NCBI GenBank assembly: GCA_021799495.1
Contig: JAJZAI010000032.1
Location: forward strand, 1 to 40,053
DNA from: Deltaproteobacteria bacterium
GTDB taxonomy: Bacteria; Desulfobacterota; Binatia; Binatales; Binataceae
DNA length: 40,053 nt
Reading direction: 5' to 3'
A program made the translations under genes and the position numbers. The notes under the pieces are model-generated. The model was given only the letters and a program-made list of their open reading frames with translations, ran no database searches and was not told the origin of the DNA. Below are positions 6,333 through 35,268 of the stretch, piece by piece. The stretch's first letter is position 1. Each line of letters begins with the position of its first letter.

Positions 6333-7553
6333 TCAAACGTCAGCGGCGATTTCATATCCGCCGGCCCTGAGCCGCGCGAGGAGTTCGTCGCGATGGCCGT
6401 GGCCGCGCGTCTCAATCTCAAGCGTGACGCGCGCGCCGCCGATCGGGATGTCGCGGCGCGTGCGGTCATGGCTGATCGATCGGATATTCGCGCCGGTCGC
6501 GCCGATCAGATCGAGCAGCTTGCGCAGCTCGCCCGGACGATCGCGCAGGTCGAGCGTGAAGCTGGTCAAGCGGCCGGCTTTCGACAATCCGTAGCCGATA
6601 ATCCGATCGAGCAGATTGATGTCGATATTGCCGCCGCTGATGCACAGCACCACGCGTTTTCCCCTTAATTCGTCGCGAATTTTCAGCGCGCCCGCCAATG
6701 CCGTCGCGCCCGCGCCTTCGGTCAGCAATTTAAGCCGCTCGAGCATCAGCAGCACCGCTTCGCCAATCTCGAAATCATCGACCGCGACCACGCGCCGCAC
6801 ATGATCGCGAATTATGGCGAAGGGAATCGCGCCGATTCGTCCGGTCGCGAGCCCGTCCGCGATCGTATCCACCGCGCGCTCGATCGATGACGCCGCGCCG
6901 GCGGCGAGACTGGTGCTGAGTTGCGGCGAACCAGCGGCTTCGACGCCGATCACTTCAGTGCGTGGCGACCGTACGGCCAGCGCCGCGGCGATTCCGGCGA
7001 GCAATCCGCCGCCGCCGGCCGGAACCAGCACGACATCGGGCCGCAGTTCCGCGGCGATTTCGAGTCCTATGGTTCCCTGACCAGCGATTACGAACGGGTC
7101 GTCGTAGGCGTCGACGAAAACCGCGCCGCTGCCGGCGCGCAGCTCCTCCGCCGCCGCGCGCGCGGCCGGATAATCGGCTCCGGCGAGCACGACTTCAGGC
7201 TCGTATGAGCGAGTCGCGTCGATTTTCGCAATCGCCGCCGTCCGCGGCATCACGATGGTCGCGCGCACGCCCGCACGGCGCGCGGCGCACGCCAGCGCCT
7301 GGCCATGATTTCCGGCGGAAGCCGCGATTACGCCACGCGCCGCCTCGCCCGGCGTCAGAACGGCGATTCGATTCGCGGCGCCGCGAATTTTGAACGAGCC
7401 GGTCTTCTGCAGGTTTTCGGGCTTGAGATAAACTTCCGCGCCGATCATTTGATCGAGCGTGGCGCTGCGCATCAGCGGCGTCGGATGGACCAAAGCGGCG
7501 ATTCGCGCGCGCGCCGCCTCGATCTCGGCAATCCCCGGCGCCGCGTCAGCCAT
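6333..7553 (-). CDS. ilvA: Threonine ammonia-lyase (threonine dehydratase), ACT-domain form
   Basis: PLP enzyme that deaminates L-threonine to 2-oxobutyrate, the first committed step to isoleucine, or a catabolic version of it. The 406-residue protein has the PLP-lysine motif KTGSFKIRGAANRI (about residues 50-63), SAGNHGQALA (about 86-95), the phosphate-binding Gly loop PAGGGGLLAGIA (about 180-191) and SGGNIDINLLDRII. A C-terminal ACT-like domain starts at about residue 330 (LTSFTLDLRDRPGELRKLLDLI). This is the short single-ACT form rather than the 510-residue E. coli IlvA. The start overlaps the end of the upstream small gene by 8 bp, which suggests translational coupling. The choice between biosynthetic and catabolic roles cannot be made from this sequence. 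Confidence 0.9.
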   Translation of the reverse strand: MADAAPGIAEIEAARARIAALVHPTPLMRSATLDQMIGAEVYLKPENLQKTGSFKIRGAANRIAVLTPGEAARGVIAASAGNHGQALACAARRAGVRATIVMPRTAAIAKIDATRSYEPEVVLAGADYPAARAAAEELRAGSGAVFVDAYDDPFVIAGQGTIGLEIAAELRPDVVLVPAGGGGLLAGIAAALAVRSPRTEVIGVEAAGSPQLSTSLAAGAASSIERAVDTIADGLATGRIGAIPFAIIRDHVRRVVAVDDFEIGEAVLLMLERLKLLTEGAGATALAGALKIRDELRGKRVVLCISGGNIDINLLDRIIGYGLSKAGRLTSFTLDLRDRPGELRKLLDLIGATGANIRSISHDRTRRDIPIGGARVTLEIETRGHGHRDELLARLRAGGYEIAADV

Positions 7554-29995: not shown

Positions 29996-31069
29996 ATGAG
30001 CGAAGCCGAAAAATCGATCGATTGGAGCAAGGTTAAGGCCTTTGCCGGACTGATGACGAACGATCTGGGGGCGGCGATGCAGGGCGCGCTGACCTATATC
30101 GGCGACCGGCTTGGAATCTTCAAGGCGCTTGCCGGCGCCGGCGCGGTTACGCCCGCGGAACTCGCCTCACGCGCCGGACTCGACGAACGCTATCTGCGCG
30201 AATGGCTCGGCGCGATGACGGCGGCGCGCTATATCGATTACGACGCCGCGTCGGGACGCTATTCGATGCCGCCGGAACATGCGCTGATTCTGGCGGACGA
30301 AAACTCCCAGTTTTTCATGGGCGGTTTCATGCAGATGATTGTGCCGGAAGTCGCGATGGCGCCGAAGCTGCTCGATTCATTCCGCACTGGCCGGGGCCTG
30401 CCGCAGAGCGAATATCCTCCCGAGGTGTTCGAGGCGATCGAACGCGGATCGGCGCCGATTTACCGCCATTCGCTGGTGCGCAAATGGCTGCCCGCGATGC
30501 CGGCTGTTGAAACGAAATTGCGCGCGGGCGCGGCGGCGCTGGACGTCGGATGCGGCAGCGGACGGGCCGCGATTGCGATGGCTCAGGCGTATCCGAAATC
30601 GCATTTTTCCGGTTACGACTCCCATCACGGCTCCGTGGAACGGGCGCGCGCCAACGCCGCGAATGCCGGAGTAAGCGATCGCGTTACGTTCGACGTTGTC
30701 GATTGCGCCCGGCTGCCAAAGGCGCGCTTCGACTTGATTACCTGCTTCGACGTGATTCACGACTCGGTCGATCCGGTGGGCCTGATGCGTTCGATTCGCG
30801 CGGCGCTCAATCCCGATGGCTCCTTCCTGATGGTCGAGATGAACGTTTCGGGCAAGGTCGAGGAGAACGTCAATCCGCTGGGCCGTCTGATGTACTCGGC
30901 AAGCACGCTATACTGCATGACCGTTTCGCTCGCTCACGGCGGCGCGGGCATCGGCGCGTTGATGGGTGAAGATCGGGCGCGGGCGCTCGCCGAGGAAGCG
31001 GGTTTCGCAAGCTTCGTCCGCCTGCCCGTCAAGGACGCGTTCTCGGCGCTTTACGAACTTAAGGCGTGA
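29996..31069 (+). CDS. Class I SAM-dependent methyltransferase with N-terminal winged helix
   Basis: 357 residues. The N-terminal part (about 20-95) is a winged-helix/dimerisation region like those of small-molecule O-methyltransferases: GALTYIGDRLGIFKALAGAG, TPAELASRAGLDERYLREWL and ARYIDYDAASGRYSMPPEHA. The C-terminal Rossmann domain has motif I ALDVGCGSGRAAIAMA (about 180), FSGYDSHHGSVERA, DLITCFDVIHDSVDP and LNPDGSFLMVEM. I start at ATG 29996, with GGGGA upstream, rather than the longer frame from 29915. The substrate is unknown. The Cys set of ArsM is not repeated here, so it is probably not a second arsenic enzyme despite the divergent pairing. Confidence 0.87.
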   Translation: MSEAEKSIDWSKVKAFAGLMTNDLGAAMQGALTYIGDRLGIFKALAGAGAVTPAELASRAGLDERYLREWLGAMTAARYIDYDAASGRYSMPPEHALILADENSQFFMGGFMQMIVPEVAMAPKLLDSFRTGRGLPQSEYPPEVFEAIERGSAPIYRHSLVRKWLPAMPAVETKLRAGAAALDVGCGSGRAAIAMAQAYPKSHFSGYDSHHGSVERARANAANAGVSDRVTFDVVDCARLPKARFDLITCFDVIHDSVDPVGLMRSIRAALNPDGSFLMVEMNVSGKVEENVNPLGRLMYSASTLYCMTVSLAHGGAGIGALMGEDRARALAEEAGFASFVRLPVKDAFSALYELKA

Positions 31070-31214
31070 CGGAGGCGCGGGCGGATTGACAGCGCGCTCG
31101 CCGCCGCTGAATCACGCCTCGAACGGGCGTACGCCGTGGAATTCGGACTTGGCTGTTCAGATAACTGCGAATTCGTGCTAAAAATTTTGGTCCGCAATCG
31201 CACGTCAATTGCAG

Positions 31215-31290
31215 GCCACCCTAGCTCAGTCGGTAGAGCAGCTGATTCGTAATCAGCAGGTCGTCGGTTCGAATCCGACGGGTGGCTCCA
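31215..31290 (+). tRNA. tRNA-Thr (anticodon CGT), CCA encoded
   Basis: A 76-nt cloverleaf: acceptor GCCACCC pairs with GGGTGGC, the D arm contains AGCTCAGTCGGTAGAGC, the anticodon arm is CTGATTCGTAATCAG with anticodon CGT (reads ACG, Thr), and the T arm is GTCGGTTCGAATCCGAC. The discriminator is T, and the CCA end is encoded at 31288-31290. It marks the left side of the conjugative region, and its anticodon arm is nearly repeated at 31416-31438, so it is the probable integration site. Confidence 0.96.
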
Positions 31291-31325
31291 AAAAAAGGAA
31301 TAAAATCAAGAGGTTTTGACGATGG

Positions 31326-31350
31326 CCGAACTGATGGTTCGGTAATTTTT
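31326..31350 (+). terminator. Rho-independent terminator after tRNA-Thr
   Basis: Hairpin CCGAAC-TGATG-GTTCGG (31326-31342) followed by TAATTTTT, 36 nt after the tRNA. The stem is 6 bp with a T-rich tail, a standard intrinsic terminator for a tRNA transcript running rightward. Confidence 0.7.
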
Positions 31351-31353
31351 GTT

Positions 31354-31375
31354 CCGTGTCCGTACCGTGTCCGTA
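31354..31375 (+). repeat. 11-bp tandem duplication
   Basis: CCGTGTCCGTA occurs twice in direct succession. It lies between the tRNA terminator and the att-like sequence, in the region where arm-type recombinase or directionality-factor sites would be expected. Confidence 0.6.
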
Positions 31376-31415
31376 TACGAACCAAACTCGCTCACCCCCG
31401 CAACCCTTACGACCC

Positions 31416-31438
31416 GCTGATTGAAAATCAGCAGGTCG
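31416..31438 (+). repeat. Near-copy of the tRNA-Thr anticodon arm; candidate att site
   Basis: GCTGATT-GAA-AATCAGCAGGTCG here matches GCTGATT-CGT-AATCAGCAGGTCG in the tRNA gene (31241-31263). All 20 bases outside the anticodon triplet agree, and only the triplet differs. The segment is also nearly palindromic, with CGACC upstream matching GGTCG. Anticodon-loop symmetry is a known crossover target of tyrosine integrases. The copy could be the element's att core or the remnant of another tRNA with a GAA (Phe) anticodon. Confidence 0.6.
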
Positions 31439-31463
31439 CAGCACGATCCTTTCGCGCTGCTGG

Positions 31464-31766
31464 TCACACGCCTTTGCCGGAAGGCTTCGAGAACAGGCGC
31501 GCTCGAAGCCTTCTTATGGTCACCATACATTCCGCGTAAAGATCCTTGGCGTCCTTGTCTGGAAGCTCTTCGAGAATTTCTGGCCGCCTCGCCAGCTCGC
31601 GAATCGTCAGCGAATCGGCCGTCGACATAGAGAGGCGCTTTCGCAGCAGGCGCGCCGCAACGTCTTCATCCGTGCTGCGGCTACTCTCGCGATGCTCGCG
31701 ACCGTTGCGCGAGTACGCGATCCACCAGATACGCCCCCGCCGAAAAATTCTACCGTCGCCTCGCAT
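31464..31766 (-). CDS. Orphan integrase arm-binding domain protein
   Basis: 100 residues. The first 45 (MRGDGRIFRRGRIWWIAYSR, NGREHRESSRSTDEDVAARL) match the N-terminal arm-site DNA-binding domain of phage-type tyrosine recombinases (pattern GxIxxRGxxWWIxYxxxGxxxRESSxSxxxxxAxxLLxxR). No SAM-like core-binding domain and no catalytic R-H-x-x-R-Y set follows. Instead there is a helical tail, LTIRELARRPEILEELPDKDAKDLY, of unknown type. It cannot be a recombinase on its own; it might act as a directionality factor or regulator, or be a remnant. It reads toward the tRNA, as integrases usually do. The ATG lies in an AT-rich stretch without an obvious ribosome binding site. Confidence 0.65.
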   Translation of the reverse strand: MRGDGRIFRRGRIWWIAYSRNGREHRESSRSTDEDVAARLLRKRLSMSTADSLTIRELARRPEILEELPDKDAKDLYAECMVTIRRLRARLFSKPSGKGV

Positions 31767-31784
31767 TAATTATCGAACTCCGCT

Positions 31785-32339
31785 TCACTTCCGCTTTCTG
31801 CCGCGCACACCCTGTCGTTCTAAGAAACGGGTTCCTGGCTCGTAGTCGCGAATGTTTCCGATTGCGAGACCAGTCCTCACTTTCCGTTGGTTAAGGATCA
31901 TTTGCGATCCAGCGGCCCTGAGAAGGGCCGTCTCAATTTCCCGCTCGTGGTTCTTGTTCTCGATGATGAAGAACGAGAAGTACAGAAGCTCCTTCGGATA
32001 CTTTCTTTTGTGGCTCGCCAGCCTCGTGAATATGTCCCCGCGACCGCCATACCGCGCAACCCCCATGGAGTCATGCGCAATATAAACTCCTTCGAGGTCA
32101 TCAGATTTGCTGCGCACATAGTCTGAGACCTCTTTCAAACACTCGAAAGGAAGCTTCTCTCCTACAAATCTGAACAGATGGCTCACCTTCTGCGGCCTTC
32201 CGGGTCCGGGAACTAACCGACCGCCTACCACACTCCAATCCACATCGGACCAGATCTTCGTTTCGACGTTTTTCGTGCTCGTCTTCTTCTGGGCTTTCAC
32301 TTTCGGCTGCGCTCGATCTCCAGTGTGTTCGTCCCGCAA
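31785..32339 (-). CDS. GIY-YIG nuclease-like protein
   Basis: 184 residues from TTG 32339; a later start is possible, since the first ~30 residues are Lys/Thr-rich and poorly constrained. The core (about 80-160) reads GVYIAHDSMGVARYGGRGDIF, then TRLASHKRKYP, FFIIENKNHEREIETALLRA and LNQRK. This fits the GIY-YIG order: GVY, a degenerate YIG (RYGG), Arg and His in RLASH, the metal Glu in the HEREIET helix, and the final Asn. Enzymes of this fold cut DNA and are common in mobile elements. It lies 18 bp upstream of the integrase-domain gene, with which it is probably cotranscribed, and divergent from the transfer operon. Activity is inferred only. Confidence 0.62.
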   Translation of the reverse strand: MRDEHTGDRAQPKVKAQKKTSTKNVETKIWSDVDWSVVGGRLVPGPGRPQKVSHLFRFVGEKLPFECLKEVSDYVRSKSDDLEGVYIAHDSMGVARYGGRGDIFTRLASHKRKYPKELLYFSFFIIENKNHEREIETALLRAAGSQMILNQRKVRTGLAIGNIRDYEPGTRFLERQGVRGRKRK

Positions 32340-32467
32340 TCCCTCGGGTCACCTATCTGCTCTGTACCGTGAAGCGCAAGGCTGGCACGCAACCTGCTGA
32401 TTCTCGAACCCGCAGCACGACACGCCGGGCGACCAACGGAAACGAAAAAGTCGCCGAAGGGATCGAC

Positions 32468-33148
32468 ATGGGCCTGAATCAATACGTGCAGGGATGGCGG
32501 GAGTGGGACGAGCGTTACGCCGACCTCGTTCTCGGCAAGCGCAACTGGCAGATCGCGGCCGGCTGCTCGCTCCTCATCAGTCTCGTTCTCGCGGTCGGCA
32601 TCGTCTGGCTCGCGCTGCGCAGCCGCTATGTCCCGTATGTCGTCGTAACCGATCGACTCGGACAGGCGATCACCATTCCGAAGCCGCTGACGCCCGCCTC
32701 GATGCCCGTCGTTGCCGCGCGGATGGAGCGCTGGGAAATCGAAGCCTTTATCCGCGACGCGCGCTCGGTCTCAAGCGATCCAGCGGTCGAGCAAGAACGG
32801 CTCGCTTCGCTGCATGCACACGCGCACGGCGCGGCGGATCGCTTCCTCGACGATTACTACCACTCTGACAACTTCGCCCATAACCCGTTCGAAATCGCGA
32901 AGAGGCGGACCGTCTCCGTTCGGATCAATTCCATCCTTCAAGTCTCGCCGCAGAGCTACGAGGTTCACTGGACCGAGGAGAGCCGCGATCTCAACGGAGT
33001 TCCCGATGGACCGGCGACCCAATGGGAAACCGCGCTCCAGACCGAAATCCAGCCGCCGAACTCCAGCGACGGCATTGTGAGCAATCCGCTCGGGTTTTAC
33101 GTGACCAACATCACGTGGACCCCGGAGCAGACCCAGGACAGCAAGTGA
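32468..33148 (+). CDS. trbF: Conjugal transfer protein TrbF (VirB8-like)
   Basis: Inner-membrane assembly factor of the type IV secretion channel, 226 residues. The short cytoplasmic start NQYVQGWREWDERYADLVLGKRNW is typical of TrbF. It is followed by one membrane helix (about residues 25-48) and a periplasmic VirB8 domain beginning SRYVPYVVVTDRLGQAI. C-terminal blocks TVSVRINSILQVSPQSYEVHW and NPLGFYVTNITWT fit the family. I start at ATG 32468, preceded by AAGGGA; the frame is open from 32369. It is the first gene of the rightward transfer operon and one of its few intact members. Confidence 0.9.
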   Translation: MGLNQYVQGWREWDERYADLVLGKRNWQIAAGCSLLISLVLAVGIVWLALRSRYVPYVVVTDRLGQAITIPKPLTPASMPVVAARMERWEIEAFIRDARSVSSDPAVEQERLASLHAHAHGAADRFLDDYYHSDNFAHNPFEIAKRRTVSVRINSILQVSPQSYEVHWTEESRDLNGVPDGPATQWETALQTEIQPPNSSDGIVSNPLGFYVTNITWTPEQTQDSK

Positions 33149-33153
33149 AGCCA

Positions 33154-34112
33154 ATGGAGAAAACGGCGATGAAGCAATCGTTCTTGCCGGCGCGCTCGCA
33201 TTGATCGTCAGCGGATGCGCGGCGAAGCAGGCTCCCGCGCCGCCGCCCCTTAACCTCGCGGTGCTTGCTCCGCCGAAGACAGAAACGCCAGCATCGCCTA
33301 CGGCCGCACAGATTCTCGCGGAGCAACCGTCAGAGGTGCGCACCGCGATCGAGCAGCACGAGCAGAGCGACCAATGGCCAACCTACAAGACAGCGGGCGA
33401 GGTCCTTTATCCATACAACGAGGGACCGGAACCGGTCGTCGATTGCGCGCCGCTCCGCACAACCGACATTCAGCTTCAGCCGGGCGAGACCATCACTGAC
33501 GTGGCGATGGGTGACAGCGAGCGCTGGATGGCAACGCCGGCATCATAGGGCGATCCGCGCAATCCAGTACCGCATCTCGCGGTCAAGCCCCAGCTACCCA
33601 GCATCGCAACCAACCTCACCATCTACACGACGAAACATATCTATCACCTGCTGCTGCGCTCGCGCGGGCGCGCGATGCAGGAGGTCGAGTTCTATTACCC
33701 GGACGAAGTGCTTGCGGCGATGAAAGACGCTGACGCCGCTGCAGCGAAATCAAAAAAGGTCGCCACTATAGATCCACCGGCCAACGACAGCGATGGCGGC
33801 GTAGTCAAGGTTTCAGTTAACCCAGGCCAGCTCAACTTTGCCTACACCATCAAAGGACCCAACGTGCCATTCAGACCCATCCGCGCCTTCGACGACGGCA
33901 GTCACGTTTACATCCAGATGCCGCCCGGAATGAAGACCAGCGAAGCACCGGCGCTGCTGATCGCGGCTAACGGCGGCACCCAGATGGTTAACTACCGCGT
34001 CGAGGGCAACTACTACGTTGTCGATCGGCTGTTCCAACAGGCCGTGATGGTCTCAGGTGTCGGACGTGAACAGGACCGCGTCACGATCGCTTACGCGGGT
34101 TCGCCGAGGTGA
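33154..34112 (+). pseudogene. trbG: Conjugal transfer protein TrbG (VirB9-like), two lesions
   Basis: Outer-ring lipoprotein of the conjugation channel. The main frame runs 33174-34112 and reads ALALIVSGCAAKQ, PSEVRTAIEQHEQS, then CAPLRTTDIQLQPGETITDV, then GDSERWMATPAS, an in-frame TAG (33546-33548), then GDPRNPVPHLAVKPQ, LPSIATNLTIYTTKHIYHL and the VirB9 C-terminal domain. No start codon suits the signal peptide in this frame; ATG 33154 and ATG 33169 are in another frame (MEKTAMKQS). Adding one G at about 33181 would join them into MKQSVLAGALALIVSGC, a perfect lipoprotein signal. So the gene has one frameshift and one nonsense codon relative to a normal trbG. The end overlaps the trbI region by one tight junction. 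Confidence 0.85.
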
Positions 34113-34117
34113 AGACG

Positions 34118-35268
34118 ATGGCCGACGAGCAAGCGAAGTTGTCTGTAGTCGGCGAAGAGCACGACCTCAATGACGAGCAGGAGCGCCAGGGCGGCGCGCG
34201 CCTCAATCGCCGTGCCCTGATCGTTGGGGCAAGCGTTCTGATTCTTGCCTCTGTCTTTGTCGTGCAGGGCATTCGCTCTGCAGGTGTTACCAACCGGAAG
34301 ACCGAAGCTCGGCCTGTAAGCGATGAAGCAGGGCAGGCGGCACGCGACAAAGCCGAGATGGAAGAACTTAAAGCACGCGCGATGCGTGCTGAGCCTTCGC
34401 CAGCCGTTACGGTACCGATCGCGCCACCTGTTGAGCCACAACTTAACGTTCAGCACTCGCCGAAGCCGCCGAGCCGTTACGGCAATGGGCCGAAGACAAG
34501 TACATGCGCGCGCTCGAAGCACCGGAGATGGTCTCGGCCTTCCACAGCGGCGGCACGCTTGAAATCGCCAGAGCACAGAGCGTCGACGACAACTCACCGC
34601 TAGGTGCAAACACTTCAAGCGATCCAACCGTCACTCTTCATCCGCCAGCATCGCGATACACCGTTATGGCTGGCAGCGTCGTTCCCGCCGTTCTCGTAAG
34701 CGGCATCAACTCCGACATGCCTGGACCCGTGCTCGCGCAGGTCAGCGAAAACGTATTCGACAGCGCGACCGGCAAGGCGCTGCTCATTCCGCAGGGCAGC
34801 CGCCTCATTGGCGCATATCAGAATGCGTCCACCGACGGTCAAGAGCGCGTTCAGATCGCGTGGCGTCGCCTCATCTTTCCAAACACGTCGAGCATGGACT
34901 TGCCGCAGATGCCGGGCGCGGACCAAGGCGGCTACACGGGTTTCAGCGATCAGGTTAACAACCACTATCTCGCGACATTTGGCCCCGCAGCGGTGATGAG
35001 TCTGATCAGCGCCGGACAAATGGTCGGCCAGATGGCCGCGTTTGGCGGCGGCGGACTGTACGGTGCGTATGGCTATTACCAACCGAATCAGTGGGCCATG
35101 TCCGGCGAGATGGCAGGTTCGGCCGCATCGGCACAGATGGGTGCGCTGGGCCAGCAAATGCTGGGTCGCGGGATGAATCGACCGCCGACGCTCGAGATTC
35201 GACCGGGCTACCAGTTCAACGTGATGGTGACTGAGGACCTTGTGTTTCTGAGCCCATACAAGGGTTGA
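34118..35268 (+). pseudogene. trbI: Conjugal transfer protein TrbI (VirB10-like), frameshifted
   Basis: Energy-sensing scaffold linking the inner and outer membrane rings. The N-terminal part (34118-34470) has a cytoplasmic segment, a membrane helix RALIVGASVLILASVFVV and a Pro-rich stretch ending PVEPQLNVQ. The frame then shifts, and from about 34460 the continuing protein reads ALAEAAEPLRQWAEDKY, MRALEAPEMVSAFHSGGT and the full VirB10 beta-barrel domain with VMAGSVVPAVLVSGINSD, LIPQGSRLIGAYQ, LPQMPGADQGGYTGFSDQVN and RPGYQFNVMVTEDL. Insertion of one G in CAGCACTC (giving CAG-GCA-CTC) would restore the frame. ATG 34118 has GAGGTGAAG upstream. Everything else is complete. Confidence 0.85.

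Follow-up and report, generated by a model that had tools for sequence, protein, structure and literature searches.

Why should the anticodon arm of a tRNA gene be present a second time, a short way downstream, with nothing changed but its anticodon? The question is raised by the window analysed here, a stretch of 40,053 nucleotides that is the entire contig C89 of a 3.43-Mb assembly (98% complete; genome G000). The first copy, GCTGATT-CGT-AATCAGCAGGTCG, lies within a tRNA-Thr(CGU) gene (31241-31263), and the second, GCTGATT-GAA-AATCAGCAGGTCG, is found at 31416-31438. The first-pass annotation had drawn attention to this pair, and its description holds: 20 of the 23 bases are equal, the copies are 175 bp apart from start to start, and the differences are exactly the anticodon triplet. 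In 100 dinucleotide shuffles there were zero matches to the 23-base pattern at 3 or fewer mismatches. The annotation had offered two explanations for the GAA copy: an att core left by an integrase that crosses over at the anticodon loop, perhaps brought from a tRNA-Phe-like site, or a tRNA-derived fragment kept for another use. The sequence comparisons presented below lead us to lean, with moderate confidence, toward another reading, in which the second copy, located in the P' arm of attP and attL, would give the element's own tyrosine integrase an additional core-type site to bind. It probably belongs to the attachment region as an in-built pseudo-core and is no scar.

A conjugative element begins at tRNA-Thr(CGU). 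The genes to the left of the tRNA look chromosomal, and to its right the conjugation block runs from VirB8 to 39817 through CagX/VirB9, TrbI/VirB10, an S26 signal peptidase, a weak relaxase match and VirD4. The profiles for VirB8, CagX, TrbI and T4SS-DNA_transf exceed their cut-offs, and the relaxase match (E 3.5e-4) falls under its own. The components that define an integrative and conjugative element, namely a type IV secretion system, a coupling protein and a relaxase, are thus present, the last as a match below its cut-off. The contig end falls inside the element, of which only the left end is assembled. VirB9 and VirB10 (33265-34603) appear to be split into two overlapping frames each, and the conjugation block may therefore be decayed or misassembled. 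The sigma54 promoter consensus is GG-N10-GC, and the similar sequence TGGCACGCAACCTGCT is located just upstream of the likely start of VirB8, near 32468. By eye, resemblances to it precede VirB8-like genes in three related loci (L034, L035 and L039), in the same place, and control of the conjugation genes by sigma54 is a possibility. The same promoter probably explains a weak inverted "third copy" of the repeat at 32389-32405; a short inverted-repeat element extending from 31423 to 32405 was rejected, since its second arm is part of this promoter-like sequence. The features of the region are collected in Table 1. The 184-aa ORF listed there has no match in Pfam or NCBIfam.

Table 1. Features of the window between the tRNA-Thr(CGU) gene and the start of the conjugation block
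Feature	Position	Strand	Basis
tRNA-Thr(CGU), attachment site	31215-31290	+	ARAGORN (CGT anticodon, one tRNA found); attR junctions of relatives break here
First copy, true core: anticodon arm and variable loop	31241-31263	+	sequence match
Crossover region, anticodon loop TTCGTAA	31246-31252	+	attR junctions in relatives
Terminator-like hairpin directly past the tRNA	31325-31343	+	prediction; 3 in the region against 1.8 expected by chance
Candidate arm-type integrase sites of the P' arm, two tandem copies of CCGTGTCCGTA	31354-31375	+	sequence
Second copy, proposed pseudo-core: two core-type half-sites round TTGAAAA	31410-31438	.	sequence comparisons
Lone 100-aa ORF resembling a tyrosine-integrase N-terminal domain	31464-31766	-	protein matches, conservation in G021
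184-aa ORF, GIY-YIG-like	31785-32339	-	by eye
VirB8 ORF, opening the conjugation block	32369-33148	+	profile match
Sigma54-like promoter TGGCACGCAACCTGCT (GG-N10-GC)	32383-32398	+	sequence compared with consensus

The tRNA-Thr(CGU) gene is an integration hotspot, with crossover in its anticodon loop. Twelve displaced 3' halves were printed from relatives, and 8 of these read TTCGT-AATCAGCAGGTCG with unrelated DNA preceding; because they begin in this way, we conclude that the integrases cross over in the loop. Of the other four, three (L048, L049 and one L046 half out of two) depart from this sequence by a few bases, and the fourth, L050, is more degenerate. This last example, at 6639 (minus strand) on contig C5 of the window's own assembly, is the 3' half of a tRNA-Thr-like gene and is maybe an old attR. 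The part of the first-pass reading that placed a crossover at the anticodon loop is therefore sustained by the junctions. The part that took the GAA copy for an att core left behind by such a crossover is not supported, since the copy lacks the CGT overlap and does not run on into a T arm.

Inspection of the GAA copy reveals a structure that was overlooked in the first reading. It is part of an extended dyad, CGACCCGCTGATT-GAA-AATCAGCAGGTCG, and consequently also matches the tRNA core on the minus strand, with 1 mismatch. The left outer arm of the dyad, CGACCC, mirrors the right arm, whereas the left flank of the tRNA copy is TAGAGCA, and the GAA copy is therefore not just a tRNA gene fragment. 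In effect both arms repeat the 3' half-site of the tRNA, so that a core half-site sequence is inverted round a short spacer, the 7-bp TTGAAAA, where the tRNA has TTCGTAA. Strand exchange by tyrosine integrases needs equal overlaps, and in this respect the GAA copy differs from a recombining att core. Nor does it resemble a tRNA gene or fragment: the acceptor and T arms are absent, as the first-pass annotation had noted, there is no contiguous tRNA sequence, and neither ARAGORN nor Rfam reports a match at the copy. Within 31000-32500 no second tRNA and no other Rfam family reaches the gathering score. The suggestion of a tRNA-derived fragment is contradicted by the left half, a mirror image of the right half where continued tRNA sequence would be expected, and that of a tRNA-Phe or other host tRNA source by the uniqueness of the sequence, since GAAAATCAGCAGG has a single occurrence in the 3.43-Mb assembly and no further place lies within 2 mismatches of the arm pattern.

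These properties also bear on the possibility that the dyad is the decayed att core of an earlier integration, perhaps one that acquired its anticodon from another tRNA. Such a relic would not be out of place at a hotspot in whose family displaced 3' halves are common, where two-element junctions exist (L035, L039) and where the copy adjoins an integrase-like ORF that lacks the catalytic part. Nevertheless we regard this explanation as unlikely, because the mirrored left arm, the missing T arm, an overlap that is wrong for tRNA-Thr(CGU) and the single occurrence of GAAAATCAGCAGG all speak against it. Decay is also to be expected of a relic, yet the dyad is 96.6% identical in another genus, compared with 75% on the tRNA side.

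This last comparison was made with G021, a genome from the same family in which the tRNA, the repeat, the dyad and the 100-aa ORF occur in identical order. The dyad is a perfect 13+13 in G021 and is one step off in the window. Between the two genomes identity is 95.8% in the tandem repeat, 75% both from tRNA to repeat and from repeat to dyad, 92% in the 25 bp past the dyad and 91.6% in the 100-aa ORF. Repeat and dyad together show 2 differences in 53 positions, against 24 in 96 for the tRNA-side DNA (Fisher p 6e-4); when the 25 bp past the dyad are added to the latter the comparison becomes 2/53 against 26/121 (p 0.003); taken by itself, the dyad is not distinguishable from the 25 bp that follow it (p 0.59). 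The dyad is thus kept between genera, yet the entire stretch from dyad to ORF is kept alongside it, and the conservation is one-sided. The block common to the two genomes spans the region from the tRNA to the start of the 100-aa ORF.

A third genome, G012, carries a variant with an unchanged offset (about 110 from the end of the tRNA), in which the arm CGACCTGCTGA is exact and the loop and outer repeats differ. When 116 genomes were searched for the dyad pattern with at most 1 arm mismatch, 27 contained some match, and judged by the loop only G000 and G021 carry the dyad itself. The first-pass annotation had stated that finding the second copy in relatives without the element would refute its reading; in the three genomes where the site or its variant was seen, G000, G021 and G012, it is in each case followed by VirB8. 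The version with two half-sites in the P' arm was present in 3 of 41 regions downstream of tRNA-Thr or attR (these same three genomes), the 41 being already fetched loci that fit a tRNA-Thr pattern. At a like place in eight other loci with intact tRNAs it was found in none, the best match being 13/17 at 330 bp in L129. In G012, at L039 4151-4218 (minus strand), there is in addition a relic arm repeat, TGTGTCCGTA, with a dyad, CCTGCTGATCAAAATCAGCAGG, that has a 6-base loop; it adjoins a gene that by eye appears broken and HTH/excisionase-like, and it is more than 3 kb from the tRNA half.

An integrase lies beside the same arm repeats in G021. Contig C25 of that genome encodes P0001, an integrase with Arm-DNA-bind_3, SAM-like and catalytic (Phage_integrase) domains, which starts beside a CGT core followed by the 3' half of the tRNA. 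At this integrase-side core (L035, near 8471) the CGT overlap is present and the sequence runs into the T arm. We infer that contigs C20 and C25 of G021 are the two ends of one element. In the G000 assembly there is no close integrase, the best match having an E of 2e-11. Allowing 1 mismatch, the 20-base heart of the arm repeat is confined, among the 116 genomes, to G000, with 1 place, and G021, with 3. In G021 two of the places are on the integrase side and the third is on the tRNA side, so that the motif flanks the core on both sides. In the window the dyad sits 34 bp beyond the tandem repeat, and in G021 a second half-site, TCGAAAATCAGCAGG, is located between the two integrase-side repeats, with an overlap that is nearly the dyad's TTGAAAA. 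The overlaps of the two proposed pseudo-cores in G021 are TCGAAAA and TTGAAAA, with GAAAA in common. The public genome collection was also scanned for exact copies of the arm repeat, and none was found. The junction at L035 8471 (minus strand) in G021 has its own peculiarity: the integrase end and core are followed by the tRNA 3' half and another P' arm, continuing into what appear to be the next conjugation genes, and it reads like tandem elements or a circular form.

A rival reading of the site involves the ORF that adjoins the dyad. The 100-aa protein matches, over residues 1-46 up to 2-91, the starts of longer proteins, mostly of 350-450 aa, in 24 of 59 genomes (its own genome counted), and several of these longer matches are the same ORFs that P0001 detects as integrases. 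The protein has no Pfam or NCBIfam match. G021 keeps the length of the ORF, with 10 synonymous and 8 nonsynonymous differences, and a dN/dS of 0.25 between G000 and G021 (binomial p 0.005) makes it look constrained. The protein may act on its own as an arm-binding regulator or as a competitor for arm sites, or it may be a recent truncation of an integrase. The dyad might then be the operator of a repressor, for example this same protein, and it would resemble the core only because integrase-like domains bind both. The apparent constraint on the ORF, and a block of common sequence that reaches its start, would fit such an arrangement. We nevertheless think it quite improbable, since a core half-site is normally read by the catalytic half of an integrase and the ORF resembles the N-terminal part, and since G012 has a dyad arm and no match to the ORF was found there. 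A role of the dyad at the RNA level, as a hairpin that ends transcription or as an element derived from a tRNA, is very improbable, for although it folds at -18.4 kcal/mol (z -3.8), terminator prediction in the region lists none at the dyad, Rfam gives the tRNA alone, and the relatives of the dyad on the integrase side are mostly single half-sites; an RNA family and a terminator were both rejected as candidates on these grounds.

The reading of the second copy as an extra integrase site may be compared with the attachment regions of related integrases. A 3' tRNA fragment was present upstream of int in 69 of 80 loci from public genomes, a few of which (e.g. L140) are probably due to chance; 86 loci were examined, and 6 that had been preselected for having a fragment were left out of the denominator. 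For the analysis of half-sites 147 integrase loci were entered, of which 87 satisfied the core rule, and removal of near-duplicates and of L158 (a false core) together with the addition of L272 gave a set of 85. A core half-site was defined as 12 bases, comprising the variable loop, the 3' anticodon stem and two bases of the loop. A second half-site matching the locus's own core in at least 10 of 12 bases, 80-140 bp from the core, was found in 8 of these 85 distinct loci, at 95-109 bp, and was absent from the other 77 integrase-side regions. The eight, with target tRNAs named by eye from the anticodons, are L115 (Thr), L116, L135, L187 and L193 (Lys), and L199, L200 and L272 (Cys). Control segments gave 1 (T-arm), 0 (acceptor), 0 (5' of the loop) and 2 (upstream) of 85, with a pooled Fisher p of 2e-4, and the reverse complement of the half-site was found in 0 of 85. 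When cores were exchanged between loci (80-135 bp window; 85 loci including L158 and without L272), own cores gave 7 matches, against a mean of 0.29 and a maximum of 3 in 500 draws for the cores of clearly different tRNAs and a mean of 0.53 and a maximum of 4 for any different core. These p-values are exploratory, because the distance window was chosen after a broader and weaker first test, with 14-mers over the whole region, in which 4 of 75 loci reached p<=0.01.

Among Cys-targeting integrases the core and the second half-site covary, as GTAAACGG/ATAAACGG in two loci and GTACACGG/GTACACGG in another, with a further pair, GTGCAAGG/GTGCAAAGG, below the threshold. The Thr-targeting L254 has an 11/12 copy that is farther away, at 149 bp. 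Most of the matches stop at the anticodon or short of it, and the one in L116 continues through the loop with two changes, of which one affects the anticodon. When the second-half-site label is placed on a tree of 83 integrases, from which L086 and four loci without a usable ORF were left out, it needs 5 changes, against a mean of 10.6 for shuffled labels, none of 500 shuffles being as low. This label is carried by 11 rows, among which near-copies help the result and several stand on long branches, and it includes three positives outside the eight: L142 (9/12, with one inserted base), L093 (8/12) and L254. More distant searches added no cases. A viral scan with the L187 integrase confirmed none, the viral relatives of the L116 integrase were too distant for att comparison, and among 17 loci of relatives of the L254 integrase 8 had a core-like stretch and none had a second half-site of at least 10/12. 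A sigma70-like int promoter, scoring 10/12 in L115 and L116 and 9/12 in L200, straddles the second half-site in these three loci. The best promoter occupies the same place in 7 of 24 loci that lack a second half-site, and no promoter was found in 6 of 11 loci that have such a half-site. Because this overlap is not distinctive, an operator role is only a suggestion.

As a whole, these results can be accommodated by the following scheme. The N-terminal domain of a tyrosine integrase binds arm repeats and its catalytic part binds core half-sites (PMC2951348), and the anticodon loop and stem of tRNA genes have been described as overlap and half-sites (PMC8371274). We infer that the integrase would bind the dyad, with its N-terminal domain on the adjoining tandem repeat, and that strand exchange between the dyad and tRNA-Thr should fail; the site would be bound without being recombined, its overlap being different from that of the tRNA. 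The dyad would probably serve a regulatory or architectural purpose, as a place to park the integrase, to shape the intasome or to lower the amount of free integrase. The simpler version with one half-site, which recurs on the integrase side in some related attP regions, lies across the int promoter in a few of these and could be an operator there. No sigma70-like promoter was found over the dyad of the window, and an architectural or parking role is for this reason likelier there.

Integrases must bind and cut the tRNA site of the host and yet otherwise stay quiet, and a site that is bound without recombining, by virtue of a changed overlap, would be a simple way to achieve this quiescence. 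A wider proposal, on the doubtful side in our estimate, is that many integrases that target tRNA genes carry such pseudo-cores in attP, with the host half-site copied and the overlap mismatched, and that one protein would thus read the same sequence as an operator or parking place at one location and as a recombination site at another. If so, an element that switches to another target tRNA must change its pseudo-core as well. The pseudo-core does seem to follow the target tRNA, which would constrain target switching and give attP a half-site signature. Further, since the two pseudo-cores of G021 share the overlap GAAAA, they could recombine with each other and so remove the true attP. A full-text literature search, largely of papers outside subscription journals, listed no account of such a site.

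It is useful to set this attachment region beside known systems. Like the integrative and conjugative elements of tRNA genes, the present one has type IV secretion genes, a weak relaxase match and VirD4 beside an intact tRNA, and relatives carry the displaced halves; unlike them, it has neither its integrase nor its right end in the G000 assembly. In lambda attP, core-type sites are known only at the crossover. The region resembles lambda attP in having an integrase with an arm-binding N-terminal domain, tandem repeats that flank the core, and inverted half-sites round a 7-bp overlap, and it differs in that an extra core-like site with a non-matching overlap is found here 95-175 bp away. A mutation of the core in KplE1 left the autorepression by IntS unaltered (PMC2951348), a point against the role proposed here, and no extra core-type site is mentioned for KplE1 in the passages of that account considered here. 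The likeness to KplE1 lies in its int promoter, which sits over the att region and is repressed by IntS itself (PMC2951348).
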